64,000 nucleotides of DNA. It comes from Cephalotus follicularis (Eukaryota; Streptophyta; Magnoliopsida; Oxalidales; Cephalotaceae). The stretch lies in contig BDDD01000378.1 in the NCBI GenBank assembly GCA_001972305.1, forward strand, positions 124,715-188,714, in the 5' to 3' direction. The notes under the pieces are model-generated. The model made no database searches and was not told the DNA's origin. It saw only the letters and a program-made list of their open reading frames with translations. Positions within the stretch are counted from its first letter, which is position 1. Every line of letters begins with the position of its first letter. Position numbers and translations under genes: made by a program. Below, piece by piece: positions 1,583-51,595 of the stretch.

Positions 1583-2103
1583 TCGACTTCCTTTTAAAGG
1601 CGTCGATGTCTTTGTAGCTGATAGCCATTGGTAGTGCATGTACTAGCCGTTCCAGGTTTCCAGGGTCTTGTTCATTTAAAAAGACGTCGATGTCTTTTTA
1701 AAGGCGTCGATGTCATTTTTGGGAAATCTCCAGCATTTGACTCTTTGAACATCACATCGACTTCTTCTGTGGGGGTCGATGTATTTTCTGGGAAATGCAG
1801 GTAGCTCTAGAAAGGCGTCGATGTCTATCAAAAGGCATCGATGCCTTTTGTACTGACGTCGATGTCTTTGTATATAGGATCGATGTCTTCAATTTGCCAT
1901 TTCGTACAGTAGCTTCTGGCACTAAAGACGTCGATGTCATTTTTAAAGTAGTCGATGTCTTTTGGTACGAACGTCGATGTCATAACTGGAAGGACGATGT
2001 CTTCATTGTATTTTGATCTTGCACTAAAGACGTCGATGTCTTTGTGGAAGGGATCGATGTCATCTTGTACGGACGTCGATGTCATTATTTGAGAGTCGAT
2101 GTC
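1583..2103 (-). promoter_or_regulatory. GTCGAC-type palindrome array, 21-bp period, Sir1 LTR
   Basis: About 18 copies of a 12-bp near-palindrome (plus strand GACGTCGATGTC or variants) lie in 520 bp. TCGA cores start at 1583, 1603, 1687, 1707, 1757, 1776, 1818, 1838, 1859, 1880, 1931, 1952, 1973, 1994 (degenerate ACGA), 2033, 2054, 2075 and 2096. Most gaps are 19-21 bp and several others are near multiples of 21 (42, 84). Sequence between cores is poorly conserved and often T-rich. The array sits in U3 upstream of the TATA box, so an enhancer role is plausible. The spurious ORFs here (DIDVF repeats) are translations of the array. Confidence 0.8.
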
Positions 2104-2222
2104 TTCTTCTGCATATGGTATTTTGCTTTGGTATTGAACTTGTAATTTCTTGCACATTAAGTAAACTTGTCAAATGCAAATATGTTATCATCAAAACAAG
2201 GATTGAGACTTAATCGTCAACA

Positions 2223-2236
2223 ATCTCCCCCTTTTT
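2223..2236 (-). other. Polypurine tract of Sir1
   Basis: Minus-strand AAAAAGGGGGAGAT lies directly against the 3' LTR start TGTTGACG. It is the primer site for plus-strand DNA synthesis. TrG has the same tract in the same place (37480-37493). Confidence 0.85.
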
Positions 2237-2888
2237 GATGATGAAAAAAATTTGCTCAAAAGGCATAAATTAAAGTAATACCAATTTAAAAATATAAGTG
2301 AATACCAATAGAGACAAATTATAATGTAAGCAATTTGTAATGTTCATGCAATATCAAATAAGCAATGAGTTATGAGTCTTAGTCTTAATTTCTCATATTG
2401 AGCCTTTTCTCCCAAAGTTCATAAACTCAAGCATTAGCATTTCTCCCCAAACATAATTCTCCACAAACATAACATATTTCTTTTGAGCCATTAGCATTTC
2501 TCCCCCTTTTTTGTATAGCATCAAAAAGATCTACAAAAGGCAGAAAAAATTAGCTCCCCCTTAATAAAAGCAAGGGTGAAAAAAATATGAACATAAGCAT
2601 TAGAATCAAAATATCGGCAATAATTGAGAAAACACAATTATACAACACAATTATATCATAGATCAAATATATATATTCATACAACACAATTCATAAAAAC
2701 TGTATAAACATCATCGCATAAACACAATTTCATAAACACATAAACATTTCATTAATATCATGAATTCAAACTTGTTCTTACAAAAAATTATAAATAACCA
2801 CTTAGTTTTCATTACATCACAACTAAAAACAAAAAATTAGCAACAAGAAACAAAACAATACCAAATAGAAAACAGCAGCAACAAGCAA
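2237..2888 (-). other. Non-coding tail of Sir1 between ORF3 and PPT
   Basis: This stretch is A/T-rich with scattered plus-strand CTCCCC tracts, i.e. extra polypurine runs on the minus strand (near 2440, 2500 and 2555). No ORF is convincing. TrG has a similar region with repeated GGGGGAG runs at 36900-37490. It is the usual long 3' untranslated region of SIRE-type elements. Confidence 0.6.
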
Positions 2889-4202
2889 TCAAGAGGCAAC
2901 AGGAGGGGCATCGGATTCAGATTCATCTCCCGAAGTCTCTTCGCAACGATCAATAGTTTTGGAGTCGGCAAGCTTTCGTTCCATTCTTTTTAGACACCTC
3001 TTAACGACTTTCAGATCGTAGAAGATGGTGTCATCAACATTTTCGTAGTCGGAATGAAGTATCTTATGATCGTTCTCCAATCTAGTGAGCCGCGTGTTGA
3101 CTTGCTTAAATTTATCATCAAGCGAGGCTTGCATGGAAGCAAATGGAGAACGCATGAACTCCATCAGCCTGTCATAATCAGTAGTGGATGAGCTTCCTTG
3201 AGCTTGAGGCTGAGCAGGTGTAGCTTCCCCTTGAGCTTCCCAAGGAGGGTTCTCTTCTTGCTCTTCAATAGCAATCCTTGGCCCTTGATCCACTTTGGGG
3301 TAATAGGTCCAAATCCCTTCCTGTTTCTTCCACCCCATCCGATTCAAAGTACTCTTGTTGTATGTGTCTTCTTTCTTTAATTTGGTTGCTATCTCTCCTT
3401 CTAGCCGAATATGACAATGTTGGAAGACTTTGGTAAGAATGGAGCCAAAAGGTAGAACTGATTTCTTTTGTGAGAATGCTCTAACCATAGTCTTGAGCAT
3501 GAGGAGAGGAAAACAAAACTCAATTTTGGAAAGGATGCACCACATAAGAAAAACTTGCATCCTAGACAATTTTGCATACCCTCCACCAGTGGGTAGAATT
3601 TGATGAACAATAAGATGGTGGAGTAACCTATGATCTACAGACAATCTATTGGTTGTCAATGCCATATTGGGATGGACATTTGGATCATTAGGGTAGAGAA
3701 TAGACAAAATTTGGTTAGGGTGAAAACCCTCAACCTCCGACCATTTCTTGTGTTCAAAGACATATAAACCGGTGTGTGGAATATGTAAAATAGAAGCTAG
3801 AATCCTAGCATCTAGGTAAATTCTCTGCCCTTTAACAGAGGAGGAGAGTGAAAATTCCTCATTTGGGCTAGAAACAATCCTAAGGTTAGAATAAAATTCC
3901 TTGACCAATTTAATATAAAAGGGGTCAGAAATTTGAACAAGTGGGAGAAGATGTAGATCATCTAACCAGGAAACGAAAGAAAACTCGGAGGAACAGAAAT
4001 CCAAGTCAATATTTCTGCCTCCCATCACACTTTTTTCAACAAAAACTACATTCCTAAGAGAAACTTGCTCTTTGGATGCGGAATCCTAAAGAGAAGGGTC
4101 GGGGGAAGACTCTCTAAGTTCGATCCTCTGCTTTTTAGCAGATTTCTTAGGTTGAGAGGTCGAAGCAGCCTTCTTTTTGACAGTTTGTTTAGTCCAAGGC
4201 AT
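2889..4202 (-). pseudogene. Sir1 third ORF ('envelope-like', plant-transposon-domain protein), one in-frame stop
   Basis: The frame runs from an ATG at 4202-4200 to 2889, 437 codons, with one TAG at codon 39 (4088-4086); downstream it is open for about 380 codons. SIRE elements carry such an ORF after pol, often called envelope-like. What I see is a very basic N-terminus (VKKKAAS..KKSAKKQR, nuclear-localisation-like), a central region resembling the putative plant transposon domain of SIRE/Athila ORFs, a proline/glutamine linker near codon 320, and a C-terminal charged stretch (LTRLENDHKILHSDYE) that could be a coiled coil. I see no signal peptide or clear membrane anchor, so an envelope role is doubtful. 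The stop separates the basic tail from the body; readthrough is known for SIRE1 between pol and env, but the context here (TAG GAT) is unlike that case. Confidence 0.75.
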
Positions 4203-4789
4203 TTTCACAAACAGTTGGTGAGCACAAGGAGAAGACACTGAGAATGACAAAAATAGATGGATTGGAGTAAACGAAAAGAGTTTTTGATGTTGAAAACGGG
4301 TTTAGAAGATGTTTTTCGAAATATTAGAATGATTTTTGAAAGAAAAAGTAGAGAGAAAAAAAATTTGAAATTGCTCATAGTAGGGTAGAAGTGATAAATG
4401 AACATAAGATCGACGTTTTTATGAAGAAGTCGATTTCTGAGTAAAATACGTCGACGTGATTCAAAAGAAGTCGACGCGTTCTTTAAATGAACGGAAGAAA
4501 TCGATACAGAAAACGCTGCGTTTTGAAAAGCATCGACGTGTTTGAAAAGGAGTCGACGTGTTTCAAAGAGATCGATGTTTTGAAAAGAGATCGACGTGAT
4601 TTTCATAAGACATACAGTTTTCCAGAAAAGAAGTCGACGTTATTTTGTAAAGCATAAAATTTCCAGAAAAGAAGTCGACTCTTTTATAAAACAGTGCAGA
4701 AAAATCAAGCAAAAACAAATCAATAACCGAAAACAATCATCACATCAATTATGCATTCAATCAAACATATCATTCAAACATAATAAACA
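4203..4789 (-). other. Spacer between Sir1 pol and ORF3
   Basis: About 590 bp with no convincing ORF lie between the pol stop and the ORF3 start. Most of it is the internal palindrome array listed separately. The A/T-rich remainder (4230-4380) may be the ORF3 leader. Confidence 0.65.
4410..4680 (-). promoter_or_regulatory. Internal GTCGAC palindrome array upstream of ORF3
   Basis: TCGA cores start at 4410, 4430, 4451, 4471, 4501, 4533, 4553, 4572, 4591, 4633 and 4674, so most gaps are 19-21 bp or about 42. Plus-strand forms are AAGTCGACGTG and AGATCGACGTG, with arms that differ from the LTR array. It lies 200-480 bp upstream of the ORF3 start in sense direction. Its position suggests a separate promoter or enhancer for ORF3; that is inference. 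Confidence 0.7.
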
Positions 4790-7700
4790 TCATTCAAGCT
4801 CACACAAACCTAATTCTCTTATAAACTTAGAAAAAGAATTCTCATCTAAAGGTTTGGTGAAAATATCCGCCACTTGTTTTTCGGTGGGAATATGCTCTAA
4901 AACAATGTCACCACATTCTATGTGTTCTCTTAAGAAATGGTATCTAATGTCAATATGCTTTGTCCTAGAATGATGGACAAGGTTCTTAGCAAGGAAAATG
5001 CTACTAGTGTTATCACATTTGATAGATACATCCTTAACACATATACCATAATCAACCAATTGTTGCTTTTGCCAAAGAATTTGAGCACAACAACTACCTA
5101 CTACAATATACTCAGCTTCAGTGGTAGATAAAGCTACTGAATTTTGCTTCTTGCTAAACCAAGAGACTAGCATGCTTCCTAGGTATTGGCATGAGCCACT
5201 AGTGCTCTTGTGGTCTACTTTATAACCACCAAAGTCGGCATCCGAGTAAGAATGTAAATCAAAATTCGAATCTCGGGAATACCATAAACCTAGAGTAGGA
5301 GTGTATGCAAGATATTTAAAAATCCTTTTCACAGCAAATAAATGGGATTCTTTAGGATTGGATTCAAAACGGGCACACAAGCACACACTAAACAAAATAT
5401 CGGGTCTACTTGCGGTTAAGTATAATAAAGAACCTATCATACTTCTATAAAGCTTTTCATCGATACATTTACCTTGTTCATCTTTGTCAAGCTTTGTAGA
5501 GGTACTCATTGGTGTCTTGCTCGTTTTAGCATTCTCCATCCCAAACTTCTTTAGAATATCCTTTGTATATTTTGTTTGGTTGATGAAGATCCCGTCTTTG
5601 TTTTGTGTGACTTGTAGTCCAAGAAAATAGTTGAGCTCTCCCATTAAACTCATTTCAAATTCAGCTTTCATTGTATTTGAAAATTCCTTGCATAAAAAAT
5701 CATTAGTAGATCCAAAGATAATATCATCAACATAAATTTGAACAATAAGTAGATCATTACCTTTAGACTTTGTAAAAAAAGTAATATCAACATTTCCTCT
5801 TTTAAAATCATTTTCAATCAAAAATTTTGTCAATCTCTCATACCAAGCACGAGGGGCTTGTTTGAGTCCATATAAAGCTTTATTAAAATTGAAAACATGA
5901 TTTGGAAAGTGAGGGTCCTCAAAACCTTGAGGTTGTTCAACATACACCTCTTCTTTAATAAAACCATTTAAAAAAGCACTTTTCACATCCATTTGATATA
6001 ATTTGAAATTATTAAAAAATGCAAATGCAAGCAACAAACAAATGGATTCTAATCTAGCAACCGGTGCATAAGTCTCATCATAATCTATTCCTTCTTCTTA
6101 TGAATAGCCTTGGGCAACTAGTCTAGCCTTATTTCTAATAATGGTTCCTTGATCATCCATCTTGTTTCTAAAAACCCATTTGGTTCCTATAACCGAATGG
6201 TCCTTTGGTCTAGGTACAAGAAACCAAACTTTGTTTCTATCAAATTGGTTTAAACTCTTCTTGCATGGCTAAAATCCAATTTGCATCTTTTTCCGCTTCT
6301 ACAAAGTTCTTGGGTTCTATGTGTGAAAGGAATGCAACATAGTTACAAGTGTTTGCTCTAGATCTAGTTCTAATCCCTTGTTGAATGCCACCTATGATAG
6401 CCTCATGTGGGTGGTCTCTAACAACCTTGTAAGTCTTATCTATGAGTTCTTCTTGGTAGCTATCCTTAGGTTCAACTTCTATGTCCTCCGATGGTCCATG
6501 AAAATCTATACTATCATGCACATGTGAACTTGAATCATGCAACTCATCAAAAACAATATGCATATATTCTTCTCCTAATAAAGTACGCTTATTGAAACAT
6601 CTATAAGCTTTAGTAGAGAGAGAGTAGCCAAGAAATATACCTTCGTCCGCTTTGGAATCAAACTTACCAAGTTGGTCTTTGCCATTGTTGTGAATAAAAC
6701 ATTTACATACGAAGGCACGAAAGTAGCTAATGTTAGGCTTTCGCTCCTTCCATAACTCGTATGGAGTCTTTTTGAGAATAGGCCTTATTGATGTTCTATT
6801 CAAAATATAACATGCGGTGTTTGTGGCTTCGGCCCAAAAGTACTTTGGTAAATCATTTTCGCAAAGCATTGTTATTGTCATTTCTTCCAAAGTTATATTT
6901 CTCCTTTCAACAACTCCATTTTGTTGAGGAGTCCTAGGGGTTGAAAACTCATGTTTAAAACCATTTTTAATGCAATAATCATCAAAAATATTATTTTTGA
7001 AATCTTTGCCATGGTCACTTGTAATTTTCAAAATTGAAAGTCCTTTTTCCTTTTGAACTATTTTACAAAAATTGGCAAAGAAGGGAAAAGTTTCACTTTT
7101 ATGTGCTAAAAAGTAAACCCATGTGTACCTAGTATAGTCATCAACAATAACATAGGCATAAGATTTACCTCCTAAGCTTCTTATGTTTATTGGTCCAAAA
7201 AGGTCCATATGGAGTAGTTCGAGTGGCCTAGAAGTTGCAACAATGTTTGTAGGTTTAAAACTTGCTCTTATTTGTTTACCTTGTTGGCAAGCATCACACA
7301 ACTTATCTTTTTGAAAACTCAATTTTGGAAGACCTTTAACAAGGTCATGTTTCAAAATTTTTGCAATTGTTCTCATACTCACATGTCCAAGCCTTCTATG
7401 CCACATCCAACTATCTTCATTTAAGGAGACAAGGCATTTTACATTTTGATTTTGAAGGTCATTTAAATTAATAACATAAACATTGCCTTCTCTTTGTCCA
7501 ATAAATTTAGTAGCATTATTGTTGTTGTCTATGACTCTACATGAAGTATTTTAAAAAATAACTCTATAATTCTTGTCACATAATTGACTTATGCTCAAGA
7601 GATTGTGTTTGAGTCCTTTTACATGCAATACATAAGAAATAGAAATATCCTTGTTACCTATAGATCCGGTTCCAACGATTTGTCCTTTCGTATTGTCTCC

Positions 7701-7814
7701 AAAGGTCACGTTACCTCCGTCTTTTGGTTTCCAAGTTATAAATTGCCGTTTGTTACCCATCATATGCTTGGAACAACCACTATCGAGGTACCAACGTTTT
7801 CTCTTTGGTGACAC
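4790..7814 (-). pseudogene. pol: Sir1 pol: protease, integrase, RT, RNase H (three lesions)
   Basis: The domain order is copia-type. Aspartic protease is at 7790-7560 (WYLDSGCSKHMMG). The GAG-pre-integrase zinc site is at 7406-7260 (WHRRLGH..CDAC). The integrase core carries its DDE residues in HMDLFGP, TSDHGKDF and NGVVERRN. RT follows with MDVKSAFLNG and YVDDIIFG, then RNase H with SDADFGG, STTEAEYI and TKHIDIRYHF, ending at 4790. Lesions are a TAA at 7553-7551, a +1 frameshift near 6250 and a TAA at 6100-6098. The three segments otherwise continue collinearly. The pol frame differs from gag, and the gag TAA (7834-7832) lies about 20 bp before the first protease residues, so a splice or frameshift step would be needed even in an intact copy. 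No activity is expected. Confidence 0.93.
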
Positions 7815-7831
7815 CTACAAAACAAGAAAAT

Positions 7832-9484
7832 TTATGTTGAAGCCTTTGGTACCCAAGTTGCTTTGGGTCCGGGGGGGTTAGTAACAAATGTTCCTTTAGG
7901 AACCCATATAGTTCTTAGTTTCAACAATTTATTTTTTAATAGCAAATTTCTTTTGTTCATGTCATTTTTCTTCCGATAGCATGTGTGTGTAGTGTGGCCA
8001 TGTCTATTGCAATAATTACAAGTCATGCTTGATGAGATCTTTTGCTTATCCTTCTTTTCAAGGTATTTTTGAAAATGTTTAACATTATTCATCTCATCAT
8101 AACCTAGGCCAGCTTTGTTGAAAACACATCTTTGAAGACCTAGTAGTTTATCTAGTTTTTCACTACTATCAGAAAATTTTGAAAAAGTCTTTTTAAGAGC
8201 ATCAATTTGAACTTTTAAAGTCTCATTTTCTTTTTCTAAAGAAATAATCTTATCATCTAGTGACTTATTAGATAAGCATTCTAATTCATGGTTTAAGCTA
8301 ACATTTTCTCTATTAATAGATTTAATGGTCTTTTTAAGAGAAGAGTTTTCTAAGCTAAATTTCTCAAGAAGTTCAAGTGGTTCACTTACCTCATTCTCAT
8401 CTTCATCTTGATCACTATCGTTGATAGCCATCAATGCTATTTGTGCTACTTCTTGGTCTTCTTCTTCTTCGGAACTTGATTCATCACTATCCGACCAAGT
8501 GGCAAGCATAGCTTTCTTCTTTTTGATAGTGTCCTTTGCTTTCTTCAATCTTGGGCATTCACTCTTGTAATGTCCGGGTTTATTACATTCGAAGCACACT
8601 ATCTCTTCCTTCTTTGTTTCGGATTTTGATGGGAATGTCTTCTTGAAATGTTTGTTCCCAAACTTTTTCGTAGCTAGATACTTCTTGAATCTTCTTGTGA
8701 TTAAAGCCATTTCATCGTCACTTTCTTCATCACTTGAGTCCGGTGTAGAGGACTTAAATGCAATGACTTTCTTTTTCTTTTTATCTAGTTCTTCATCATC
8801 CTCATGATTTTTGATGGTCATTTCGTGTATCATGAGTGATCCAAGAAGTTCTTCAAGCGGCAAAGTGTTGAGGTATTTAGCTTCCTCTATGGCCGTAACT
8901 TTAGGTATCCAACTTTTCGGTAGACACCTAAGTATCTTTCTCACCATTTCACTATTAGTGCAGCATTTATTCAATGATTGTAAGGAATTAATAATATTAG
9001 TAAATCTAACAAACATACCGGAAATGTTTTCGTTTTCCTTCATGGAGAACATTTCGTATTCTCTTACAAGCATGTTTATTTTTGCGTCCTTGACTTGATT
9101 TGTACCTTCATAGGTAACTTCTAATCTATCCCACATCTCTTTAGCCGTAGCACATGATGATACTCTATTGAATTCATTAGAATTTAAAGCACATATAATC
9201 ACATGTTTGGCTTTAGCGTTTAGTTGTTCCTTTTTTCGATCATCATCCGTGTAAGAGCTTCTCGGTTTGAGGGTTTTGATACCTTCTTGCGAGATGATGT
9301 GAGGAAGTTCCGGGCCATCAATAATGATGTCCCATAGGTTGAAGTCAATAGCTTCAATGAATATAGTCATCTTTGCCTTCCAATGACTATAGTTGTTTCC
9401 ATCGAAAAATGGAGGCTTTGAGATGGACATGCTTTCCTTGTTTGACATATTCAATTCCATAAGGATCTTTGTAATCTCTAACAA
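7832..9484 (-). CDS. gag: Sir1 gag, intact, two zinc knuckles
   Basis: The 550-codon frame starts at 9484 and is open throughout. N-terminal residues 25-60 (FFDGNNYSHWKAKM) are the short gag N-domain, and residues 95-230 form the UBN2/copia gag domain (AKEMWDRLEVTYEGTNQVK). A CCHC knuckle (CFECNKPGHYKSEC) is near residue 297, acidic serine-rich stretches near 335-375, a predicted coiled coil about 380-455, and a second knuckle (CNYCNRHGHTTHTC) near 495. The gag encapsidates genomic RNA; long gags with a distal second knuckle fit SIRE. A later in-frame ATG (residue 9 or 13) could be the real start. This is the only Sir1 ORF without a lesion, so it could still supply capsid to relatives such as TrG. 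The first 121 codons are copied at 10895-11258. Confidence 0.9.
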   Translation of the reverse strand: MLEITKILMELNMSNKESMSISKPPFFDGNNYSHWKAKMTIFIEAIDFNLWDIIIDGPELPHIISQEGIKTLKPRSSYTDDDRKKEQLNAKAKHVIICALNSNEFNRVSSCATAKEMWDRLEVTYEGTNQVKDAKINMLVREYEMFSMKENENISGMFVRFTNIINSLQSLNKCCTNSEMVRKILRCLPKSWIPKVTAIEEAKYLNTLPLEELLGSLMIHEMTIKNHEDDEELDKKKKKVIAFKSSTPDSSDEESDDEMALITRRFKKYLATKKFGNKHFKKTFPSKSETKKEEIVCFECNKPGHYKSECPRLKKAKDTIKKKKAMLATWSDSDESSSEEEEDQEVAQIALMAINDSDQDEDENEVSEPLELLEKFSLENSSLKKTIKSINRENVSLNHELECLSNKSLDDKIISLEKENETLKVQIDALKKTFSKFSDSSEKLDKLLGLQRCVFNKAGLGYDEMNNVKHFQKYLEKKDKQKISSSMTCNYCNRHGHTTHTCYRKKNDMNKRNLLLKNKLLKLRTIWVPKGTFVTNPPGPKATWVPKAST

Positions 9485-9504
9485 TTAAGAAATAAGATTG
9501 ACCT

Positions 9505-9517: not shown

Positions 9518-10788
9518 TGAAATAAAACACTCTTGCAATATACAAGAGGCGAGGGTGAATTGAATATTGAAGTAAAATTGGGAATTTAAAAACTTTAAAT
9601 GTAAAGAGTTAAGGAAAGAAAAACTTCTCCGAAATTTAGAGTGGTTCGGCTAACTCTTGCCTACGTCCACTTTTCCCAAGGGAGATCTTTGAGTTTCCAC
9701 TATATCTCGAATTGATTAAGGCAGCAATTCGTTACACCTCACAAATTCGTGATTGACCTCAATCACAAGACCTTAACCTCAAAGCCTTAGAGGATTCTCC
9801 TCTTTTACAAGAAATGATAAAAGTGTTTACAAGTTGACCTCTCAAATAGGTAGGTATGAAAAATACAGCTCTCAATATGAAACACTCAGATATTCTCAAA
9901 GAATAGAGCTTAGAAGCTTGTTAGAGCAATATAGAGCACTTTGAGCTTTTTACACAAGTATGCTTGGATTTGATTTCTCTTTTGATGTTGTGTAATTGAT
10001 GTTGAATAATTCTGAATTATTGTTTTTCTTCTGAGGTTTCAATCTTCCTTTTATAGCCACAAAAGATTTGTAGCCGTTGCATAATTCATGGAAGCTTTTG
10101 ATTTAATATTGTGTAGTTGCAATCTTTGAATTTGTCGTCTGCTGACATAAAGACGTCGACTTCTTTTTAAAGGCGTCGATGCCTTTGTAGCTGATAGCCG
10201 TTGGTAGTGCATGTACTAGCCGTTCCAGGTTTCCCGGGTCTTGTTCATTTAAAAAGACGTCGATGTCTTTTTAACGGCGACGATGTCATTTCTGGGAAAT
10301 CTCCAGCATTTGACTCTTTGAACATCACATCGACTTCTTCTATGGGGGTCGATGTATTTTCTGGGAAATGCAGGTAGGTCTAGAAAGGCGTCGATGTCTA
10401 TCGAAAGGCGTCGATGTCTTTTGTACGAACGTCGATGTCTTTGTATATAGGATCGATGTCTTCAATTTGCAATTTCGTACAGTAGCTTCTGGCACTAAAG
10501 ACGTCGATGTCATTTTTAAAGTAGTCGATGTCTTTTGGTACGGACGTCGATGTCATAACTGGAAGGACGATGTCTTCATTGTATTTTGATCTTGCACTAA
10601 AGATGTCGATGTCTTTGTGGAAGGGATCGATGTCTTCTTGTACGGACGTCGATGCCATTATTTGAGAGTCGATGTCTTCTTCTGCATATGGTATTTTGCT
10701 TTGGTATTGAACTTGTAATTTCTTGCACATTAAGTAAACTTGTCAAATGCAAATATGTTATCATCAAAACAAGGATTGAGACTTAATC
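9518..10788 (-). repeat. Sir1 5' LTR, duplicate copy 1 (truncated)
   Basis: It matches 946-2214 and ends at ..GAGACTTAATC, where GyA begins (10789). It carries the same array (TCGA cores from 10156 to 10669), TATA box and structured module (9637-9703). It lacks the last bases (GTCAACA), which lie at 22086-22092 beyond GyA. Confidence 0.9.
10156..10676 (-). promoter_or_regulatory. GTCGAC palindrome array, Sir1 5' LTR copy 1
   Basis: This is the same 20-21-bp-period array as in the 3' LTR, with a few point differences, some of them CG/TG changes. The duplicate is at 11930-12450. Confidence 0.78.
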
Positions 10789-11291: not shown

Positions 11292-12562
11292 TGAAATAAA
11301 ACACTCTTGCAATATACAAGAGGCGAGGGTGAATTGAATATTGAAGTAAAATTGGGAATTTAAAAACTTTAAATGTAAAGAGTTAAGGAAAGAAAAACTT
11401 CTCCGAAATTTAGAGTGGTTCGGCTAACTCTTGCCTACGTCCACTTTTCCCAAGGGAGATCTTTGAGTTTCCACTATATCTCGAATTGATTAAGGCAGCA
11501 ATTCGTTACACCTCACAAATTCGTGATTGACCTCAATCACAAGACCTTAACCTCAAAGCCTTAGAGGATTCTCCTCTTTTACAAGAAATGATAAAAGTGT
11601 TTACAAGTTGACCTCTCAAATAGGTAGGTATGAAAAATACAGCTCTCAATATGAAACACTCAGATATTCTCAAAGAATAGAGCTTAGAAGCTTGTTAGAG
11701 CAATATAGAGCACTTTGAGCTTTTTACACAAGTATGCTTGGATTTGATTTCTCTTTTGATGTTGTGTAATTGATGTTGAATAATTCTGAATTATTGTTTT
11801 TCTTCTGAGGTTTCAATCTTCCTTTTATAGCCACAAAAGATTTGTAGCCGTTGCATAATTCATGGAAGCTTTTGATTTAATATTGTGTAGTTGCAATCTT
11901 TGAATTTGTCGTCTGCTGACATAAAGACGTCGACTTCTTTTTAAAGGCGTCGATGCCTTTGTAGCTGATAGCCGTTGGTAGTGCATGTACTAGCCGTTCC
12001 AGGTTTCCCGGGTCTTGTTCATTTAAAAAGACGTCGATGTCTTTTTAACGGCGACGATGTCATTTCTGGGAAATCTCCAGCATTTGACTCTTTGAACATC
12101 ACATCGACTTCTTCTATGGGGGTCGATGTATTTTCTGGGAAATGCAGGTAGGTCTAGAAAGGCGTCGATGTCTATCGAAAGGCGTCGATGTCTTTTGTAC
12201 GAACGTCGATGTCTTTGTATATAGGATCGATGTCTTCAATTTGCAATTTCGTACAGTAGCTTCTGGCACTAAAGACGTCGATGTCATTTTTAAAGTAGTC
12301 GATGTCTTTTGGTACGGACGTCGATGTCATAACTGGAAGGACGATGTCTTCATTGTATTTTGATCTTGCACTAAAGATGTCGATGTCTTTGTGGAAGGGA
12401 TCGATGTCTTCTTGTACGGACGTCGATGCCATTATTTGAGAGTCGATGTCTTCTTCTGCATATGGTATTTTGCTTTGGTATTGAACTTGTAATTTCTTGC
12501 ACATTAAGTAAACTTGTCAAATGCAAATATGTTATCATCAAAACAAGGATTGAGACTTAATC
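11292..12562 (-). repeat. Sir1 5' LTR, copy 2 (continues at 22081-22092)
   Basis: The last 5 bp before GyA, TAATC (12558-12562), are repeated at 22081-22085, where the LTR resumes and ends GTCAACA at 22092. This is the copy that GyA split. It carries the array at 11930-12450 and the structured module at 11411-11477. Confidence 0.9.
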
Positions 12563-26840: not shown

Positions 26841-27013
26841 TCAATGGTTGTTTTAGGGTTTCTTAAGTTTGATACCTCACCAACGTTTATCCATTCATCC
26901 CAAGCAATTACCAATCACAATTTATAATAATTGGACATTAAATTCAAATGAGTGCACATTTTTATTAATCAACATTACAATGTACACGAATTGAATTTGT
27001 GGTTATTACAGCA

Positions 27014-34138: not shown

Positions 34139-34260
34139 TGTTGACGTTGAGTCTCAATCCTAAGTTTTAATGATTACAAATTTGCATTTAACATGTTTAC
34201 TTAATGTGCAAGAAATGAGAAAGTTCCACAAAGGCAAAAATCATCTGCAGGGCAAAGACA

Positions 34261-37493: not shown

Positions 37494-38157
37494 TTGACGT
37501 TGAGTCTCAATCCTAAGTTTTAATGATTACAAATTTGCATTTAACATGTTTACTTAATGTGTAAGAAATAAGAAAGTTCCACAAAGGCAAAAATCATCTG
37601 CAGGGCAAAAACATCGACCTTCCAGAAATGACATCGACGTCCGTACAGAAGACATCGATCCCTTTCAAAAAGACATCGACGTCTTTAGTGCCAGAAGCTA
37701 CTGATCAAATTTTAAATGAAGACATCGATCCATACAAGCAAAGACATCGACGTCGGTACCAAAGACATTGATCCCTTTACTAAGACATCGACGTCTTTCT
37801 AGACCTATCTTCAAATCTCAGAAAAGACATCGACCCATGAAGAAGAAGTCGACGTGATGTTCATATATTCAAAGCCTGGACAGATTCCCAAAAATGACAT
37901 CGACGCCTTTAAAAAGACATCGATGTCTTTTTAAATGGATTGACCCGAGAAACATGGAACGGCTAGTTGGCGCACTTACAACGGGTAGTAACAGTCAAAG
38001 ACATCGACGTCTTTCTAAAGACATCGACGTCTTTCTGTTAGCAGAGACAAAAACAGGAGTTGTATCAACATTTTTTTTATATCCAAAGTTCCCAAGACTT
38101 TTGCAACGGCTATAATCTGAAGAATGCTATAAATACAAGCCAAGAAACAAGCTCAAT
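37494..38157 (+). repeat. TrG 3' LTR, left part
   Basis: It starts TGTTGACGTTGAG after the PPT and follows the 5' LTR to GAAACAAGCTCAATA, where GyC LTR sequence begins. The array spans 37614-38034, with cores 20-21 bp apart. Confidence 0.88.
37614..38034 (+). promoter_or_regulatory. GACATCGACGTC array in TrG 3' LTR
   Basis: The cores from 37614 to 38024 are the same array as at 34261-34658, with extra copies and fewer CG-to-TG changes (e.g. the pair at 38004 and 38024, both GACATCGACGTC). Confidence 0.78.
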
Positions 38158-41517: not shown

Positions 41518-41860
41518 GAACCCAAAATCAAGTGTAAGGTGTTTGTTTGATTTGCACCCGGAACCCAAAATCAAGTGTAAGGTGGTTTACTTTGATTTGC
41601 ACCCGTAAGCCGAAAATCAAAGGTTGCTAGTGGTACCTAGTGGAATCTCAATGGGTTCTTGAGAAAGTGGACGTAGGCACGGATTTGCCGAACCACTATA
41701 AATTCGTTTGCACACTCTTTATCCCTTATCTCTTTACTTACAATTGCATTATTTATTCTTTTGTGGATTGTTTAGTTTCATACTTTAATTTGTTATTTCT
41801 GCAAACAAATTATTTTGTAGTCTAAGGTTGCCATATAAGGGTTATTGGTTTTTCTCAACA
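41518..41860 (+). repeat. TrG 3' LTR, right part
   Basis: It matches 34822-35098 and ends ..GGTTTTTCTCAACA. It carries an extra copy of the AACCCAAAATCAAGTGTAAGG unit relative to the 5' LTR. The structured module is at 41638-41700. Confidence 0.85.
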
Positions 41861-42971
41861 GGGTAAAGCGTCGACAGTTACAATGTAACCGTCAGCGCTT
41901 AGGGACAAACCGTCAAAGGCCAAATATCAAGCGTCAGCAGTTCAGCAACTTGGTCAAAGTTAATATGTATAAAGCAGCAACGCTTAGCTCAACACTGTCA
42001 GTGCTTAGAGCCAAAATGCACCAACTGTTAAGAAGGCCATGCTAGCGCTTTGACACAATGAATTCACAAAGTTGCTCAAACACGTGAAGCAGCGATGCTT
42101 AAAGGAAACCGTTAGCGCTTTGTGCAAAGTGAAGAAAAGTTACACCAAGCCTCAACGGTTAAAGAATCTAGACTAAATAACACACAAACCGATGACGCCT
42201 TTATTTAAAGTGGCAGCGCTTTACTAAGCGTAGAGTTGAAATTGAAAAACCGACAAAGTTTTAAAAGGGGAGACTCAAATTAAGGCGTAACGGTAACCTC
42301 TAAGTGTCGACGCTTAGATCTAAACCGGCGATGCTTTGATAGGGGGATTACAATCTGCTCAATCTTATCAACGCTGAATTAAATGCAGAGTTTTCCAAAT
42401 TGTTTCCAACGGCTCTCTAACGTCTCCAACGGCTATTTCCTGCTACACACTATAAATAGGAGGCTTGAATCACAACAACATGACACAACAATCAACACTA
42501 CAATACTTTGTCATCAAATTTCGTTAGCAAGTGCTATTATTTTATTTTGAGTTACTGTAAGGTAGCATATTCAGTCAATATCCAACCTTAGAGAGGTTAT
42601 ACAAAAACACCCAACAACTTTGTATTACTTTTATTATCAAGGGAGTGAACCCAAAGTGTATGTGATTGAGCTGAATCACAAAAATTGTAAGGTGCACTGA
42701 ATCGCTCCAGTAAAGATATTCGGAGTTTGTATTTAAGGGTGAATACTAGTGGAATCTCAATGAGGTATTTGGAAAAGTGGACATAGGCAAGATTTAGCCA
42801 AACCACTCTAAAACTGTGTTTGCAATTTCTAAACTCTATCTCTTTACTTATAGTCATTTTTATATTGGAATTGTTGTTTTACCTTTATACTGTTATCATA
42901 TATCAAAAAAGTTTATAAGTTTATACATACTACAATTCACCCCCCCCCCCCTCCACCTTGTAGTAATTTCA
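41861..42971 (+). repeat. CopE: copia LTR fragment, 5' end missing
   Basis: It has the copia LTR layout of Sir1 and TrG but is a different family. A degenerate palindrome array (41871-42335), a TATA box TATAAATAGG (42451-42460), the structured module (42746-42810) and a terminal CAATTCACCCCCC stretch ending TTTCA at 42971 are in order. The start TG is not found, and no PBS or coding follows, so this is a truncated solo LTR. Confidence 0.75.
41871..42335 (+). promoter_or_regulatory. Degenerate GTCGACGCTT array in CopE
   Basis: Starts at 41871, 41892 (TCAG), 41912 (TCAA), 41934 and on to 42307 and 42328 are about 20-22 bp apart. Many are GTCAGCGCTT, a decayed GTCGACGCTT. It is the oldest-looking of the arrays. 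Confidence 0.6.
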
Positions 42972-43835
42972 TCCCTGACCACGAGGCATGCTACCGGACA
43001 CATGACACTTGCATATAAATTCTAATGTGAATGTCTACATGCAATGCATGATATGGATGGGTCTAGAAAATTTAAATCCATTTTTCCTTTTCTTCAAAAT
43101 CTTGAAAACATTCCACTTTAAAAGTCTGGAGAATCTAAAACCAAACGCTCTGATAGCAAAATTTCTCACCCCCGTCCCGACAGGTATCAGATAATCCTGC
43201 CGAGACATATGTGACAATCACATGACAAGCCTCATTTCAGAAACCCCCACGTGATATCTTAAAACCGTTTGAAAACTGCCTAAAACCATTTAATCAAATT
43301 AAAAGTCATAAAGTAGAACTTTTTTAAAAACTTAAAAATAATTCTAACTCTTAAATTTTTTCAAAAATCGGGCATGTAGTATCCGTTTATCGAACTATAC
43401 CCCCAATAAAGAAAACACAATTCATAAAACGGACTCAACCCCTCAGCAAACCACAATTTAAAATAGTAAACATGCGTGGGTTGGGCTCCACCTCAACCAT
43501 GTTATCAAAGAATAAATTATAAATAGGGCTCAGGCCTTTAAAAACCATACAAACATTCATATATAAATATAAATAATGAATAATTTAAATGATGATGTCG
43601 TGGATGCTATGCATATGCTGGAACCCTAGTGGTCATGCCCTCGTGGTCCGACGTCGACTGAAGCAGACTTAGCAACTATTTTGCCACTATCTGAAAAAGA
43701 TAAAAGGGAGGGGGTTAGTCCAAATGACTAAGTGAGATAGAACACTTCCCCTGAAACATCAATAGGAAGGACAAGAATATATTGAAATAAAGGAGAAATA
43801 ATATCAACAGAGATATAAGCATAAATAATGTAGAA
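42972..43835 (-). repeat. GyA-family fragment: leader, PBS and LTR end
   Basis: 42972-43160 resembles 19800-19928, including CCAAACGCTCTGATAGCAAA as the PBS. 43164-43835 resembles the start of the GyA LTR (AAATCGGGCATGTAGTATCC; GAGGGGGTTAGTCCAA; GACTAAGTGAG) but is clearly diverged. It is cut at 43836 by GyF. No gene was seen. Confidence 0.75.
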
Positions 43836-44719
43836 TGTCACGCCCCGAACCGTGAGGGAAACCCCCACGACCCGACACTTGATCACCTTCCTTTCAATCC
43901 TTAAATCTCATTATTCAAAAAGCGCTATAAATTTAAAATTTTAATCAATCATATCATATCAGCGGAATAATCAATTGAATATATTCTAACTCTTATAATT
44001 TTACGAAAATCGAGCATGTGTTATCCGTTTATCAGACTATACCCCCTGTAAAGGGAAACACAATTTATAAAGTGGGCTCAGCCCTCAACGAACCATACTC
44101 CCGTAGGAGGAAATCAGAATTATATCATTCTAATACCTCAAATGATGAACCCATCCATATCCAGTGCATTAACACACATATATCTTAAGCATTGCCACAA
44201 GCCGGTAGGTCGGTAGCTGAATAAAACAAATCTCTATTTCATCTTTAGATTGTCTCTTAAACATAACAAGTCTTATGCTAACTCATACAAGGTAAACCAT
44301 ATACGCAATGTATATAACCAATATCTGAAACTCATATAGGAAAATTTGTATACATAAGATGAATAATAATAATATGAATTCCCTATCTGAGAATCTGCCC
44401 TAGATGTCCATCCATCTCAGTCTATCTCACTGCAATACATCACCTATACCTGGATCTGAACCTGAACCTGACCCATTCCATTATGAAATGGGTCAGCAAC
44501 CTTTGGCCATGTACAATATACATATGCAATGAAATGTGCAAATTGAAGCAAGTATATATGTATGTGTCATGAGGATACATAACAAACAGGAATGTCAAAT
44601 GATATTAACATAACTCATCAATGTTCAGCAGTTCATAATTATAGCTATGTCATTCTATACCCTTAGGTATTCTACTAGGAATCTAGAGCTTGACTACATA
44701 TATATATTGTCCCATACCA

Positions 44720-44755
<36 letters not shown>
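43836..44755 (-). repeat. GyF 3' LTR, left part, ending in (AT)n
   Basis: It is similar to 54102-54990 throughout. It ends in an (AT)n tract at 44722-44755 directly against GyC RT sequence, so the GyC truncation point is in the microsatellite. Confidence 0.85.
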
Positions 44756-44757
<2 letters not shown>

Positions 44758-46110
44758 TCTTCCTCGCTTTTCGAGTATACAAGTACGTCGTCAATAAACA
44801 CAACGACGAACTGGTCCAAGTACGGTCGGAACACATCGTTCATCAATGACATGAACGCAGTCGGTGCATTGGTGACACCAAAAGGCATCACCAGGAATTC
44901 ATAGTGACCGTATCTTGTCCGGAAGGCAGTTTTCTCAATATCTCCTTCCCTCACCCTCAACTGGTGATATCTTGTCCTCAGATCAAGCTTAGAGAACACT
45001 CTCGCTCCTTGCAACTGATCAAATAAACCCTCAATGTGGGGTAAAGGGTATCTATTCTTGATAGTTGCCTTGTTTAACATTCGGTAATCGATACAGAGTC
45101 TCATCGACCCATCCTTCTTCTTGACGAACAGTACCGGTGCACCCCATGGAGAAACACTGGGTCTTGCAAAACCCTTATCGATCAGGTCTTGTAATTGCAG
45201 CTTCAGCTCTCGCAACTCAGTCGGAGCCATCCGATAGGGTGATTTAGAGATAGGAGCCGTTCCAGGAACAAGGTCAATAACGAACTCCATACTCCTCTTG
45301 GGTGGTAAGGATCCCAAGTCATCAGGAAACACATCCGGAAATTCGCACACAACTGGAATTTCCTCCAAGCTCAAACCTTTCTCCCTCCTTCTATCAATAA
45401 CATAAGCCAAATATCCCTCACATCCCTTCTCCAGGTATCTCGATGCTCGGATAAAAGATATGATCGGTGTAGAGAATCCCTTGTCTCCCTTGAACTGAAA
45501 AGTCGTTCCATCGGGCAGACAGAAATCCACAGTCTTATGGTAGCAATCCATACGAGCACGGTGCGTCGATAGCCAATCCATCCCCAATATTACATCGAAG
45601 TCACGGATAGGCAGTACAATCAGATCTACATATAGAGGAATGCCTGCCATAGACATCTCACAACTCCTATATACCGAGTCAGTATACATAGAAGTCCCGG
45701 TCAGTGTACTCACATCAAGCGTATAAGACAAGCAGTCAGGGGTGACATCTAAGCAAGATGCAAAACGTGCAGATATAAATGAATACGATGCACCTGAATC
45801 CATTAGTACTCTAGCAGAATAACCATATATATACAGGGTACCTCCAACAACGGAAGTCGATTCTGGAACCTCAGTCTGAGCAAGTACAAAGATTCTACCT
45901 TTTGCGATGCCCTTGCCAGTATCTCTCCTCTGTGATGGTCCCGCAGTCGCACCACTGCTGTTAGCTGGTCCGGTAGGTGCTGTAGTTTGATTCTTCGGGC
46001 AGTCCCTTACCTAATGGCCAGATGCTCCACACCTCAAACATAGCCCATTCATCCTCCAACAATCCTTCTGCAAGTGGCCCTTCCAAACACAGTGATAACA
46101 GGAGTTCCCG
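44756..46110 (-). pseudogene. pol: GyC zinc knuckles, protease and truncated RT
   Basis: In sense order two CCHC knuckles (CYHCVWKGHLQKDC near 46110-46060 and CLRCGASGH near 46038-46012) precede the aspartic protease ([12 protein letters not shown] at about 45810; ILGMDWLS at about 45590) and RT ([20 protein letters not shown] at about 45140; [29 protein letters not shown] near 44780). A TAG at 46013-46011 falls inside the second knuckle at a position normally glutamine. RT stops after the FIDD catalytic motif, where the frame runs into (AT)n and adds meaningless IYIY residues. The thumb and connection domains are lost. Confidence 0.9.
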
Positions 46111-47133: not shown

Positions 47134-49885
47134 TGTCACACCCCGTTTTCCAACTTAAGACAACATATAAAGTGGTAAGGCAACCAACGCAAAAAATAAT
47201 CCAACTCATACGAAAGATACCAAAATTTAAAACTTTCGATAGCGGAAGCAACAACAACAACAACATACATGAGTCGAATAGAAAGACACATCACACATCC
47301 CATACTACGTGATGCCCGATAACCCAAAAGTAACCGTTGATCGCCCAAACGGAGCGTGAAAATGATACAATACAAGATAACAAATATCCAATGTTACAAA
47401 ATCCGAATAACATGATAATTGTTCAATAACCCAAAATACATAAGTAAGAGAAATAATAAGTCTTCTCTTAAAATCTCTGTGCATGCTCCATGTCAAGATC
47501 ACTCCATCAATCTGTTACAGTAGGGGTTAGCCTTTGTCCTCACTCGGCTAAGTGAATAAATCCATAAATACAGTCCGAGTCATAAGATAAAGAGTATCAT
47601 GAATGAATGCATAATGATGAGCCATGACATGTAATTTCTTTCAGTAAAATACCTCCGTGTGTACATATCAAAATATGTGCATGCTCACAATACAAGTATA
47701 ACTCATAAGTTATATCAACACAGGCAGTAAATATGTTCCCAAAAAGGAACCAGACAAACAAGTCGTCGTGACCGTCGCCACCTCCTGGCCCCAACGTCGC
47801 GCACTCTTGCTTTAACCCAATGGTTTTGGAGCAAGTCCTCAGTAAGTTGTTTAGCACGGCGACTAAACCAACAGCAGGTTACTCGCACAGTGGCTAAGTA
47901 ATCAACAAGTTATTAGCACGGTGGCTAATAATCAACAGGTTATTAGCACGATGGCAAATAATCAACAAACACAGGCATTTCACAGTACAAGTCAAGCAAT
48001 TACATATAATTACCTGATCAAATATATTTGTTTAAAATATATTATTCCGTTCACAAGTTGTAATAAGTTATAAAGCTTAAAACAATGCATTTCTCTGTCT
48101 TTGGAAATACTTCCCCAATCATTTCAAAAATATATACAGTCATTATACATTTTCGCAATTTACATTTGGTTTCATAATCAAAGCTTTTAAAACAGTTCTC
48201 TATCATTGGAAATACTTCCCCAAACTTCTGAAAATATATAAATTCACGTGTTGACAGATATACATTTTCGTACCCAAATGATCATAATAATCATGCAAGC
48301 TTTTCAAAATGGTTTAACACTTTTAGGAAAGCAACCGTAATGCAAATCATAGTAACAATGCAACATATGCTCAGAATGCATCTAGGTTCGTTTTGGGTCA
48401 TTCGTGCGAAATTGTACTGTCCAGGAGGAAAGACGTCTATGTCATTCCCTAAGGCGTCGATGTCTTTTAGCCTAAAGCGTCAATCCTGTGTACAAATATT
48501 TCCAGGTGTATTCAATCCAAAGACGTCGATGTCTTTTACAAAGACGTCGATGTCTTTTTCATATCAAAGGGTTTCAGTTCGGTACTTTGGTTCTAGAGGG
48601 CAAGATCCAACCTTTTAATCCCTCTTAACAACAAACCCCACTCCATAAACGTATAAGGTATGCTACTGGTTAATGGGTACACAACCATAATATCAATCCG
48701 AAACCAAACAGGTGATTCCAAGTGGTTAAACAACCATCTGAAATGAACATCACAGTTCATACAATTTCCCAGAAAAGGAGTCGATGTCTTTACAAAAGAC
48801 GTCGATGTCTTTTACAACACAGAACGTGTTTTCCAAAATTTTAACCCACCAAGCCATCAACAAACCCATCCCTTACACAACAGATTCACGCATTCATGTA
48901 ATCATACATGCAAGCTTAACTCAGTGCATCACAGTAACACTTCAACAAGTCCAGAATCACAATCTAGTCAATAACATGAAATTCACCATGCTATACATTA
49001 ACTTAAAACTCAAAGTGCACATATAAATTCATCACTTTCCCCTACCTTAATGTTCCAAGTTAGGAACTGGAAAGTCCACCTCTTTTAGTATCCAAACAGG
49101 TCGCAGCAGCCTCTCTAGGTCCGTCCCGTAGCTGCACCAGTAGTTCCAAGGTCCAAGGTCCAAGCTCCAAGCTCAACAATGGCACACACACACTCACTAT
49201 TTTTCTTTCTTCTCTCTCTTCTGGTGTTATAAAACGAGAGAGAGAAATGGGGAAGGGTATTCTTATGCAGATGACTCCCACCTAACACCCTTCTTTTGTC
49301 ATTTAACATCCACTCCCGAGATCTCTCCCACTTCCAAGTTTTCTGCATATCTTTTTGTTTTCTAATCTCCCTTTTGCAGGTTGCATGGTAGGATGGCATG
49401 AGCCTTGCATGTTCCATGTGAGGTTAGGTTTTAGTGCTTCTGGTCAGTACACAGACATGCTCAACACGTCGAATCGCACTTGAAAAGGCATTAGATAAAG
49501 CCTTTAAACAATTCCCCTTGCACGTTATGCTGCCGACGAAGAACGTGCTGGCCATTCTTACAAAGGCGTCGACGTCTTTCCTTGGACGTCGACGTCTTTT
49601 GCATTTTGTAAGAAGGTGTCGATGCCTTCTTCCGTTGTTGACGTGCATGTCCCTTCCTTCACGTGTACCCTTGATCCAATATGAGTCGACGTCTTTCCAA
49701 AAGACGTCGATGTCATTATGCCAAAACAGTGTCGTTTCAAGCTTATAACACACATTCCATTACCAAAGTCATAAGTAGGGTTTGTAGCATCTTTTGAGTT
49801 CAAAAACTCAACATTTTCATTAAATCAAGTTTAATGATTACATCATAAATGGAAATATTACACCAGGAAAATACCGGGCGTTACA
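47134..49885 (-). repeat. GyC 5' LTR (2752 bp, complete)
   Basis: It starts TGTCACACCCCGTTTTC and ends ..ACCGGGCGTTACA. Its right 1242 bp match 38160-39401 almost exactly, which supports a single recent GyC insertion. The solo LTR at 22928-28507 is the same family. Palindrome pairs are at about 48446/48467, 48527/48548, 48781/48802, 49568/49588 and 49686/49707. The short ORFs on both strands are artefacts of the arrays and CT tracts. Confidence 0.9.
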
Positions 49886-50094
49886 ATATATATAAGGGCT
49901 ATCTTTAGCCTACTCTGCCATAGAGACAGAATACAGATGCTCCAACTCTTCTTAGATTCAATACAGGCTCTTTCACTCTTCACTGCATCATTTCAACAGG
50001 CCACCGACATTCCAAGTAATCTCGGAACAAATACAGGCTCTTCTTGGCCTTCTCTGCTCAAGAAGGTATGAGCAGATCGAGCACTTTAAATCTT

Positions 50095-50890
50095 CTATTT
50101 ATTCTTAAGGACATTAAACCTCTGTTCTATTGAGGACCTTAAACCTCTGTTCTATTGAGGACATTAAACCTCTGTTCTATTGAGGACATTAAACATCTGT
50201 TTTATTGAGGACATTAAACCTCTAAGACATGAGCAGGTAAAGGACATATAACCTTCTTACTCTATTCAGCAGGTATGAGTAGGTAGAAGACCTCTAACCT
50301 TCTTACTCTATTCAGTAGGTATGAGTAGGTAGAGGACATTTAACCTTCTTACTATACTATACCTCCTAAGGCATGAGCATCTAGAGGACATTTAACCTTC
50401 TTACTCTACTCAGCAGGTATAAGTAGGCAGTGGACATTTAACCATCTATGCTCTACTATACTTCCTAAGGACTTTTAACCTTCTATATTCTATTGAGGAC
50501 ATTTAACCTCTTAAGGCACGAGCAGGCAAAGGACATTTAACCATCTGTGCTCCACTCGGCAGCTATAAGTAGGCAGTGGACATTGAACCATCTATGCTCT
50601 ACTATACCTTCGAAAATAAGAGCAGGCAGAGAACTTTCAACCTTCTATGCACTACCGTATCAGTATGAGTAGGCAGAGGACTTTTAACCTTCCTACTCTA
50701 CTTAGCAGGTATGAGCAGGCTGTGGACATTTAACCTTCTTACTCTGCTATACCTCTTAAGGACCTTTAACCTTCTATGAAATTCTAGGACGTTTTACCTT
50801 TTATGATATTCTAGGACGTTTAACTTTCTATGATATTCTAGGTCGTTTATGATATTCTAGGACCTTTAACCTTCTATGATATTCTAGGTC
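50095..50890. repeat. Degenerate AGGACATTTAACCTTCT minisatellite in GyF LTR
   Basis: About 25-28-bp and 48-50-bp units repeat GGACATTTAACCTTCT with GTATGAGTAGGTAGA between them. The other GyF LTR has a homologous array at 55290-55990 with different unit numbers. Confidence 0.8.
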
Positions 50891-51129
50891 GTTTAACCTA
50901 GTCTTAAAGGCTTCCCAGTCTGGTGTAGACTATGAGCTTGAAGCTCTGACCATCAGCACAAGGTATACCTCTAGTACGAGGTCTCTTCTACAGTCAATGG
51001 CACATGTCTGCTCGGCAGCCTCAGGGACAGGTCTGCAAGGCAGCCTTGAACGCTAGTCTACTCTTAGAGTCATCTGGAATTGAGACCCATGTAAAATACT
51101 TGATTTAGTTAAAACATGGGATTTAGGCG

Positions 51130-51595
51130 TCAATGTTATTGCTCTAAGCGTCAACTCTTAGCGTTGTTCTGCCATATTGCGCTAAAACATTATGCGTTGA
51201 CGCGTTCGCTCATTTTCCTTTACGCGTTGCTAGACTCTATGTTCATGTTAACGCCCCATGCTACAATGAGTGTTGGACATAGATATGCTATTTGCACGTC
51301 AATGTTGCGCATTGACGCCCTGCGCTGATTAGCAAACAAAACCTCAAGGAAACTCGCATTGCATCAACTGATTCAACCACAAGGCCTCAACTGGTTGCCT
51401 TGGCGTCGACAACTCGTCTTAGGCATCGACTGGTTTCATTAAGTGTCGATAGAACACTCTTATAGCATTGACAGTCTTTACAGTCACGTTAACACATCAC
51501 ACTACGAAGCCGAGTTGTGCATCGATTGGTCACCCTCAAGGCATCAACTGATTGCCTACAATGCGTCGACGCTTTTCACCAACACGTCGATGGTT
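51130..51595 (-). promoter_or_regulatory. GTCGAC/TCAACTG array in GyF LTR
   Basis: Cores are at 51130, 51151, 51364, 51387, 51406, 51426, 51446, 51468, 51544, 51565 and 51587, with neighbouring gaps 19-23 bp. ATGCGTCGACGCTT (51560-51573) keeps a 10-bp perfect palindrome GCGTCGACGC. Confidence 0.7.

Follow-up and report, generated by a model that had tools for sequence, protein, structure and literature searches.

Helically spaced palindrome arrays shared by copia and gypsy long terminal repeats in Cephalotus follicularis

In a 64,000-nucleotide stretch of the genome of the pitcher plant Cephalotus follicularis (Oxalidales; assembly GCA_001972305.1, contig BDDD01000378.1, positions 124,715 to 188,714; hereafter the window), retrotransposons of both the copia and the gypsy superfamily carry arrays of short palindromes within their long terminal repeats (LTRs). 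All arrays share the core (G/A)TCGA(C/T), or RTCGAY, and the arms around it fall into three classes, T1 (AAAGACGTCGACGTCTTT-like), T2 (CCAGTCGACTGG-like) and T3 (AAGCGTCGACGCTT-like), the arm types being GAC, CAG or GCG. The units are spaced as a ladder of helical turns, hold, in the Sireviruses, the position known for palindromes of such elements, conserve their core and switch their arms. That this ladder outlasts the turnover of linkers and arms in two superfamilies is indicative of a DNA-bound protein, and the recurrence of a near-identical palindrome across unrelated families, 2 or sometimes 3 or 5 turns apart, suggests a shared switch that a protein would grip from one side of the DNA. 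If it is common to unrelated retrotransposons, such a switch could activate or silence them jointly, with consequences for the way these elements come to occupy plant genomes.

Spacing of the palindromes

An earlier note on this DNA, made from the sequence alone, had proposed that the palindromes repeat every 20-21 bp. The 295 TCGA tetramers of the window form 10, 28, 29 and 9 pairs at 19, 20, 21 and 22 bp, respectively, and none at 23-26 bp; against these 76 pairs at 19-22 bp, 100 shuffles that preserve dinucleotides gave 2.2 ± 1.3 (maximum 6). Elsewhere in the genome, 20 segments of 10 kb, each on a different contig and together 200 kb, were picked by hand at places whose sequence had not been inspected beforehand; they held 67 such TCGA pairs versus 4.2 ± 2.0 (maximum 9) in 30 shuffles, and 11 of the 20 held an array of at least three cores with at least two steps of 19-22 bp. 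When the 256 tetramers were ranked in these 200 kb by their excess at 19-22 bp over nearby distances, CGAC came first, GTCG second and TCGA sixth. The exact 18-mer AAAGACGTCGATGTCTTT occurs 18,614 + 18,817 times genome-wide, and its reversed control 86 + 75 times. The proposed periodicity is thus real and genome-wide, as shown by the shuffles of the window and the 200 kb and by the whole-genome pair counts given below, the excess of TCGA pairs over shuffles being large. Among the 16 intervals listed as arrays, 14 hold at least one step of 19-22 bp and two hold none (70 of 129 TCGA gaps are such steps), these two being 28188-28333, with TCGA gaps of 50 and 50 bp, and 41871-42335, with just two TCGA 436 bp apart.

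Since the pair count of the window is inflated by near-identical LTR copies, arrays were collapsed to sequence families. In a set of 26 families, comprising the window and 60 genome stretches (L001-L008 left out) with one representative array per family, 88 of 143 adjacent gaps measured 19-22 bp, none 15-18 bp and two 23-27 bp. The number of families depends on the threshold, as single linkage merged some on unit-level similarity only and the addition of 20 stretches took the set from 28 families to 26. The 40 added stretches of ~1 kb were taken at listed GTCGAC-pair sites in contig C1 and therefore favor T2 and T3 arrays with a 20-21 bp step.

Distances between GTCGAC pairs, counted throughout the 1.577-Gb assembly at 20-21, 25-26, 30-31, 35-36, 46-47, 51-52 and 56-57 bp, form a ladder of helical turns that is not perfectly sharp. 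There are 146,643 pairs at 20-21 bp and 1,355 at 25-26 bp; 6,016 at three turns (30-31 bp) and 524 at 35-36 bp; and, at five turns (51-52 bp), 13,781, with 3,954 at 46-47 bp and 1,001 at 56-57 bp. Chance is estimated at ~1,000 pairs per two-distance bin, from 113 GTCGAC in a 200-kb sample, and the reversed control CAGCTG gave 1,615, 181, 101, 107, 166, 322 and 45 pairs in the same seven bins. Because high-copy families dominate such counts, one array per family was also analyzed. Among the 26 families, gaps past the first step cluster near 31, 42 and 51 bp (8 gaps at 30-32 bp, 9 at 40-44 bp and 16 at 48-54 bp), and the remaining ranges are sparse (3 at 24-29 bp, 1 at 33-39 bp, 2 at 45-47 bp and 2 at 55-60 bp). 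Phasing in this set gave p values of 0.003-0.022 under a uniform null and 0.0008-0.012 under a jitter null, with a best period of 10.0-10.45 bp, in a test that tried periods of 10-11 bp alone over three overlapping ranges; the 28-family set gave p = 0.022. Some T3-like arrays (G000:C102:575617-575706 and others) are true tandem repeats of a 28-bp unit, GTCGACGCTTTTATGTGTTAAACTTACA, and lie off the ladder.

The earlier note had attributed the spacing either to two helical turns or to the length of 21-nt small RNAs. A constraint on the helical-turn scale, independent of whole-LTR homology, stands. The small-RNA length was rejected as the common cause, since it would place peaks just at multiples of 21, which leaves those at 30-31 and 51-52 bp unexplained.

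Arrays in copia and gypsy elements

The assignment of arrays to both superfamilies, likewise proposed earlier, was borne out by Pfam and tblastn (Table 1). Copia elements A and C are classed as Sireviruses by the hallmarks examined, namely multiple polypurine tracts (PPTs), the AT/TG junction and gag/pol. The PPT AGGGGGAG is present in three copies in the linker of A and four in that of C, which together account for seven of the eight AAGGGGGAG in the window (both strands); A shows a AGGGGGAG-AT-TG junction that ends at 2221, and C has a PPT at 37481 with its 3' LTR alignment beginning GGGAGATTGTTG at 37485. Gag, integrase and reverse transcriptase (RT) are present in A, and gag only in C. Since no pol was found between the C LTRs (34132-38158), where gag and four Sirevirus PPTs are present, copia C looks like a non-autonomous Sirevirus derivative.

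In the LTRs of A and C the array lies upstream of the sole TATAWAW, and the last core precedes this TATA box by 105 bp in three of the four LTRs and by 125 bp in the fourth. Cores occupy positions 121-634 of the 1276-bp A 5' LTR, which has its TATA at 739, and reach 539 in the 674-bp LTR alignment of C. The CpG observed/expected ratio of the A 5' LTR, calculated without an island caller, is 1.52 in the array versus 0.50 downstream. The array at 4410-4680 had been taken for part of an LTR; the palindromes are there, but they sit between pol and the 3' open reading frame (ORF) of Sirevirus A. A Sirevirus-like remnant, L013, has T2 arrays in both long repeats and again between an RT piece and PF20167 (5088-5134). 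L009 is a different copia lineage, with an RT ~33% identical to that of A; the array found there sits either within this element or in another insertion nested in it. At 9115-12667, the 5' LTR and gag start of A are tandemly duplicated at a spacing of 1,774 bp (99.9% identical), giving the order LTR, gag piece, LTR, probably by a very recent unequal exchange.

Among gypsy elements, D (and E, by homology) carries T1 arrays, L018 and L028 carry T2 arrays within LTR pairs, and the LTR starting at 29144 carries T3; L020 probably carries T3 as well. At L014, T1 arrays stand on both sides of Gypsy coding sequence, and since an LTR pair was sought there and none found, this locus was not counted as a Gypsy LTR case. 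The Chromo match of Gypsy D scores 22.2 bits, under the cutoff of 25.1. Within Gypsy D, positions 41547-41858 match the stretch after the copia C 5' LTR (34787-35099) at 96%.

The earlier note had named homology of whole LTRs as what would undo a shared array. Across seven LTR/array regions, copia-gypsy similarity is confined to stretches of at most 58 bp, all inside arrays (at most 54 bp for T1; 58 bp for T2, between L013 and L018), and whole-LTR homology across the superfamilies was rejected on this ground. Exchange of a ~40-60-bp piece between copia and gypsy is possible. The array similarities between A and C, and between D and E, are ordinary within-lineage homology.

Conservation of core, arms and linkers

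Units of all classes were retrieved via RTCGAY, and arms were sorted into classes by visual inspection (16 of 18 families in a first set and all 28 in a later set), with the array at win:4409 entered as T1 although merely T1-like. The conserved half-width is ~8 bp in T1, ~6 bp in T2 and 6-7 bp in T3, the linkers between cores are near chance identity and step length drifts little. Since half-widths differ and linkers are near chance while steps measure 19-22 bp in all three classes, the spacing is not a by-product of unit length.

Within units, the two arms are complementary at 241 of 531, 56 of 180 and 101 of 279 positions, which is not above the level of arms re-dealt within arrays (p = 0.22, 0.52 and 0.31; 110 units, 16 families). 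With arms no more complementary inside a unit than across units of one array, the half-sites appear to be conserved separately. The left and right arms thus do not covary, and we therefore infer a dimeric protein that reads DNA half-sites in preference to an RNA hairpin.

GACGTC, which had been suggested as a C-box-like core for bZIP factors, is present in 34 of 87 T1 units, 1 of 51 T2 units and none of 39 T3 units, and ACGT within ±9 bp in 44, 1 and 3 units, respectively. A bZIP C-box was therefore rejected as the common cause, both motifs being nearly confined to T1.

Core CpGs are preferentially kept. In five aligned pairs of LTR/array regions (seven were tried and two gave no alignment), 68 of 76 core CpGs were retained versus 116 of 203 other CpGs (p = 1e-7, each retained site being counted from both sides); counting each of them once gives ratios of 34:8 and 58:87 (p = 3e-6). 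Arms are exchanged around this core. The homologous Gypsy LTRs of L028 and at 29144 have core and step at the matching place (cores at 204, 225 and 251 in L028, and at 223, 244, 264 and 353 in the other), but their arms differ, T2 versus T3; alignment holds in the flanks (86% and 80% over the two initial 50-column blocks, reaching up to 86% near column 1000) but fails across the array region.

Relation to known systems

The earlier note knew of no described set of plant LTR families defined by such an array, yet one exists. RM boxes of Sireviruses are palindromic, high-copy, CpG-rich motifs in the upstream LTR half, before the TATA box, with an extra cluster before the ENV-like gene, in elements whose hallmarks are multiple PPTs and an AT/TG junction; the Vitis RM box, CGGTCGACCG, contains GTCGAC (Bousios et al., 2010; PMC2829016, here and below from the accessible part of its text). 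The arrays of copia A and C share with RM boxes their palindromic nature, high copy number, location in the upstream LTR half ahead of the TATA, CpG island-like composition (the 1.52 of the A 5' LTR array) and the extra cluster before the 3' ORF (window 4409-4679; L013 5088-5134). As judged from these likenesses, the A and C arrays are RM boxes, a known kind with a different core. They differ in that the CGG-CCG signature is missing here, as it likewise is from Tnd-1 (PMC2829016); in that the arrays here also occur in Gypsy LTRs (D, L018, L028, 29144 and, by homology, E); and in their helical ladder, the accessible text giving no unit spacing (PMC2829016). That text compares copia elements only, reports RM boxes to be absent from classic copia and names no common binding factor (PMC2829016). 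Since the Gypsy arrays are found outside Sireviruses, we call them RM-like rather than members of the RM boxes.

As far as searched, the phasing, the sharing with Gypsy LTRs, the arm switching and the retention of core CpGs are new beyond RM boxes. A search of open-licence literature by titles and abstract openings turned up neither GTCGAC arrays nor helically phased LTR palindromes, in Cephalotus or elsewhere, and neither sharing with Gypsy nor arm switching. LTR enhancer repeats of Tnt1 and Tto1 are similar, being repeated U3 cis-elements bound by host factors, but they are known from single families, unlike a palindrome common to superfamilies. Palindromes of maize Opie, Ji and Giepum also form clusters in the LTR cis-region; their motif, however, is CACCGGACNNNGTCCGGTG, and the role discussed in the text seen is small-RNA targeting (Bousios et al., 2016, via PMC5311732 and PMC10760457). 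In the VANC/VANDAL system, according to the part of the source available, short tandem motifs in non-coding DNA likewise change together between related elements, but the element class is different, the motif is YAGTATTAY and an element-encoded reader has been shown to bind it (PMC5735166).

A proposed role in LTR transcription and its alternatives

It is, in our view, fairly probable that a dimeric factor binds the arrays cooperatively along a single face of the DNA and acts on LTR transcription. Each palindrome of ~12-18 bp would comprise two inverted half-sites meeting at (G/A)TC|GA(C/T) and would be occupied by a dimer. With units 2, and sometimes 3 or 5, turns apart, the dimers would all sit on the same DNA face and assist one another's binding upstream of the TATA box, and the bound arrays may then drive or de-repress LTR transcription. 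The additional array that precedes the 3' ORF would play this part for a subgenomic transcript, and the same or related factors may serve both superfamilies.

Several observations weigh against this proposal. No plant factor that recognizes GTCGAC is known to us. The ladder is somewhat blurred, because the pairs at 46-47 bp exceed chance, several T2 arrays (including L013 and L025) step 48-49 bp instead of 51-52 bp, and the 28-bp-unit T3-like arrays supply part of the count at 56-57 bp. High-copy families weigh on the genome-wide counts, and these counts mostly reflect T2 and T3, since exact GTCGAC is found in 48 of 51 T2 and 29 of 39 T3 units and in 23 of 87 T1 units, the rest of which have A or T at an edge. 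In the initial set of 18 families, phasing past the first step did not reach significance (p = 0.07-0.16), and this set included L024 and L025:3616, not convincing arrays; the 28- and 26-family sets required two steps per array. Single pairs of regions give p values of 0.01-0.16 for CpG retention, which out-of-register alignment of units could inflate. TATAWAW was sought in the LTRs of Gypsy D, L018 and L013 and none was found, and that of LTR E falls among its cores. Finally, array RNA folds better than shuffles: the two arrays folded gave z values of -4.1 and -3.9, with 0 of 100 dinucleotide shuffles as good in each.

This folding would be expected if the palindromes gave rise to small RNAs by way of hairpins in LTR transcripts, or acted in RNA dimerization, and palindromic LTR regions of maize are small-RNA hotspots in the accessible text of PMC5311732 and PMC10760457. 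Folding can, however, be a by-product, since any palindrome array folds. The arms do not covary within units, T2 conserves just ~6 bp per side and hairpins predict no peaks at 31 and 52 bp, so that we regard an RNA role as unlikely.

That the factor is encoded by the elements themselves, for example by the PF20167 ORF behind the internal array in the manner of VANC, and is exploited by Gypsy elements, we regard as improbable. Internal and LTR arrays share an arm class (T1-like and T1 in the window element A; T2 and T2 in L013), and arms vary between elements, a pattern that co-evolution of reader and site would produce; the targets of VANC, in the part of the source available, are tandem repeats that vary between related transposable elements (PMC5735166). 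This match of arms is found in two elements only, though, and PF20167 is the sole Pfam match of the 3' ORF. Structure models were poor (mean predicted local distance difference test scores of 40 and 62), the second without a fold match (0 at E ≤ 0.001), and a sequence search of PDB returned nothing relevant. The T2-bearing Gypsy elements L018 and L028 have no PF20167 match, which also counts against an element-encoded reader. Matches to the PF20167 ORF reach 94% identity in Cephalotus follicularis, and each of the 120 matches listed, out of 387, belongs to that species. A broader speculation, to which we give a small chance, is that helix-phased RTCGAY palindromes are a single code of copia Sireviruses and gypsy elements, read by an arm-co-evolving factor, perhaps the Sirevirus 3' ORF product, as a one-sided filament, and that Gypsy elements adopted it to form a trans-acting network.

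Chromatin geometry, in which phased GC-rich cores with AT-rich edges position nucleosomes or bend DNA without a specific protein, also seems improbable to us. AA/TT-type steps do occur near ±7 to 8 in T1 and near ±6 to 7 in T3, and ~10.4-bp phasing is a requirement of rotational positioning; in T2, however, the AT edges are weak (0.25-0.47 at ±7 to 8) and the step is unchanged, and a core this specific exceeds the needs of a nucleosome signal.

Least probable is a functionless minisatellite grown by tandem duplication of a ~20-bp unit: segmental duplication occurs (102-bp and ~41-bp repeats, and 28-bp units elsewhere) and units likely multiply this way, but linkers are near chance identity with little step drift, core and step are similar in unrelated families, core CpGs persist despite the high mutability of CpG in methylated plant DNA, and gaps of three and five turns exist. 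Plain tandem duplication was accordingly rejected as sufficient, unit similarity not being full-length.

Features of the window

Table 1. Arrays and retrotransposon features of the window (window coordinates; elements as predicted from sequence).
Feature	Position	Strand	Remarks
Sirevirus A	about 946-10793	(-)	gag, integrase, RT, PF20167 ORF
A 3' LTR	946..2222	(-)	TG start at 2222, after PPT octamer and AT; 97% LTR pair 946-2219 / 9518-10793
Sole TATAWAW of A 3' LTR	1476..1482	(-)	105 bp past last core
T1 array, A 3' LTR	1582..2100		17 RTCGAY cores
Three PPT octamers of A	2225..2562	(-)	AAGGGGGAG first bases at 2562, 2508, 2233
A 3' extra ORF, PF20167 (Transposase_32)	2889..4085	(-)	Pfam; located where Bousios et al. 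put the ENV-like gene
Internal T1-like array of A	4409..4679		11 cores, between end of RT/ribonuclease H ORF (4790) and PF20167 ORF
A gag, integrase, RT	4790..9484	(-)	Pfam PF14223, PF00665, PF07727
TATA box, A 5' LTR	10049..10055	(-)	single TATAWAW
T1 array, A 5' LTR (about 9518-10793)	10155..10673		16 cores
T1 array, duplicated LTR 11292-12567	11929..12447		LTR copy
T2 array (CAGTCGACTG)	25571..25679		region homologous to L018 Gypsy LTR
T2 array	26717..26817		homologous to L028 Gypsy LTR array
T1 cores, LTR E (27013-28505)	27013..27431		LTR E homologous to Gypsy D LTR
Three T1 cores, LTR E	28206..28312		50 bp apart, without 20-21 bp step
T3 array, Gypsy LTR starting 29144	29366..29501		LTR just after Gypsy integrase piece (28509-29099)
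T3 array, LTR region of 29144	30293..30427		same Gypsy LTR region
T1 array, copia C 5' LTR (about 34132-34785)	34260..34635		10 cores; TATA at 34755
Four PPT octamers of copia C	37179..37489	(+)	at 37179, 37285, 37373, 37481
T1 array, copia C 3' LTR	37613..38028		13 cores; TATA at 38128, 105 bp past last core
T1 cores, Gypsy D 3' LTR (38160-39401)	38297..39227		
Gypsy D coding region	39447..46010	(-)	Pfam; weak chromodomain
T1 cores, Gypsy D 5' LTR	48456..49711		
T3-like array	51405..51591		not assigned to an element

The window also holds other repeats. An array of 25-bp and 46-bp units (GACATTAAACCTCTGTTCTATTGAG-type), unrelated to GTCGAC, lies in a repeat pair at 50108-50455 and 55281-55722. 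Positions 56000-64000 have 46-49% GC, a reversed skew and complex repeats with units of 24, 36, 40, 47 and 82 bp, partly in two ~90% copies; one ORF of this region was run against Pfam and gave no match. At 63369-63617 there is a perfect tandem duplication of a 124-bp unit.

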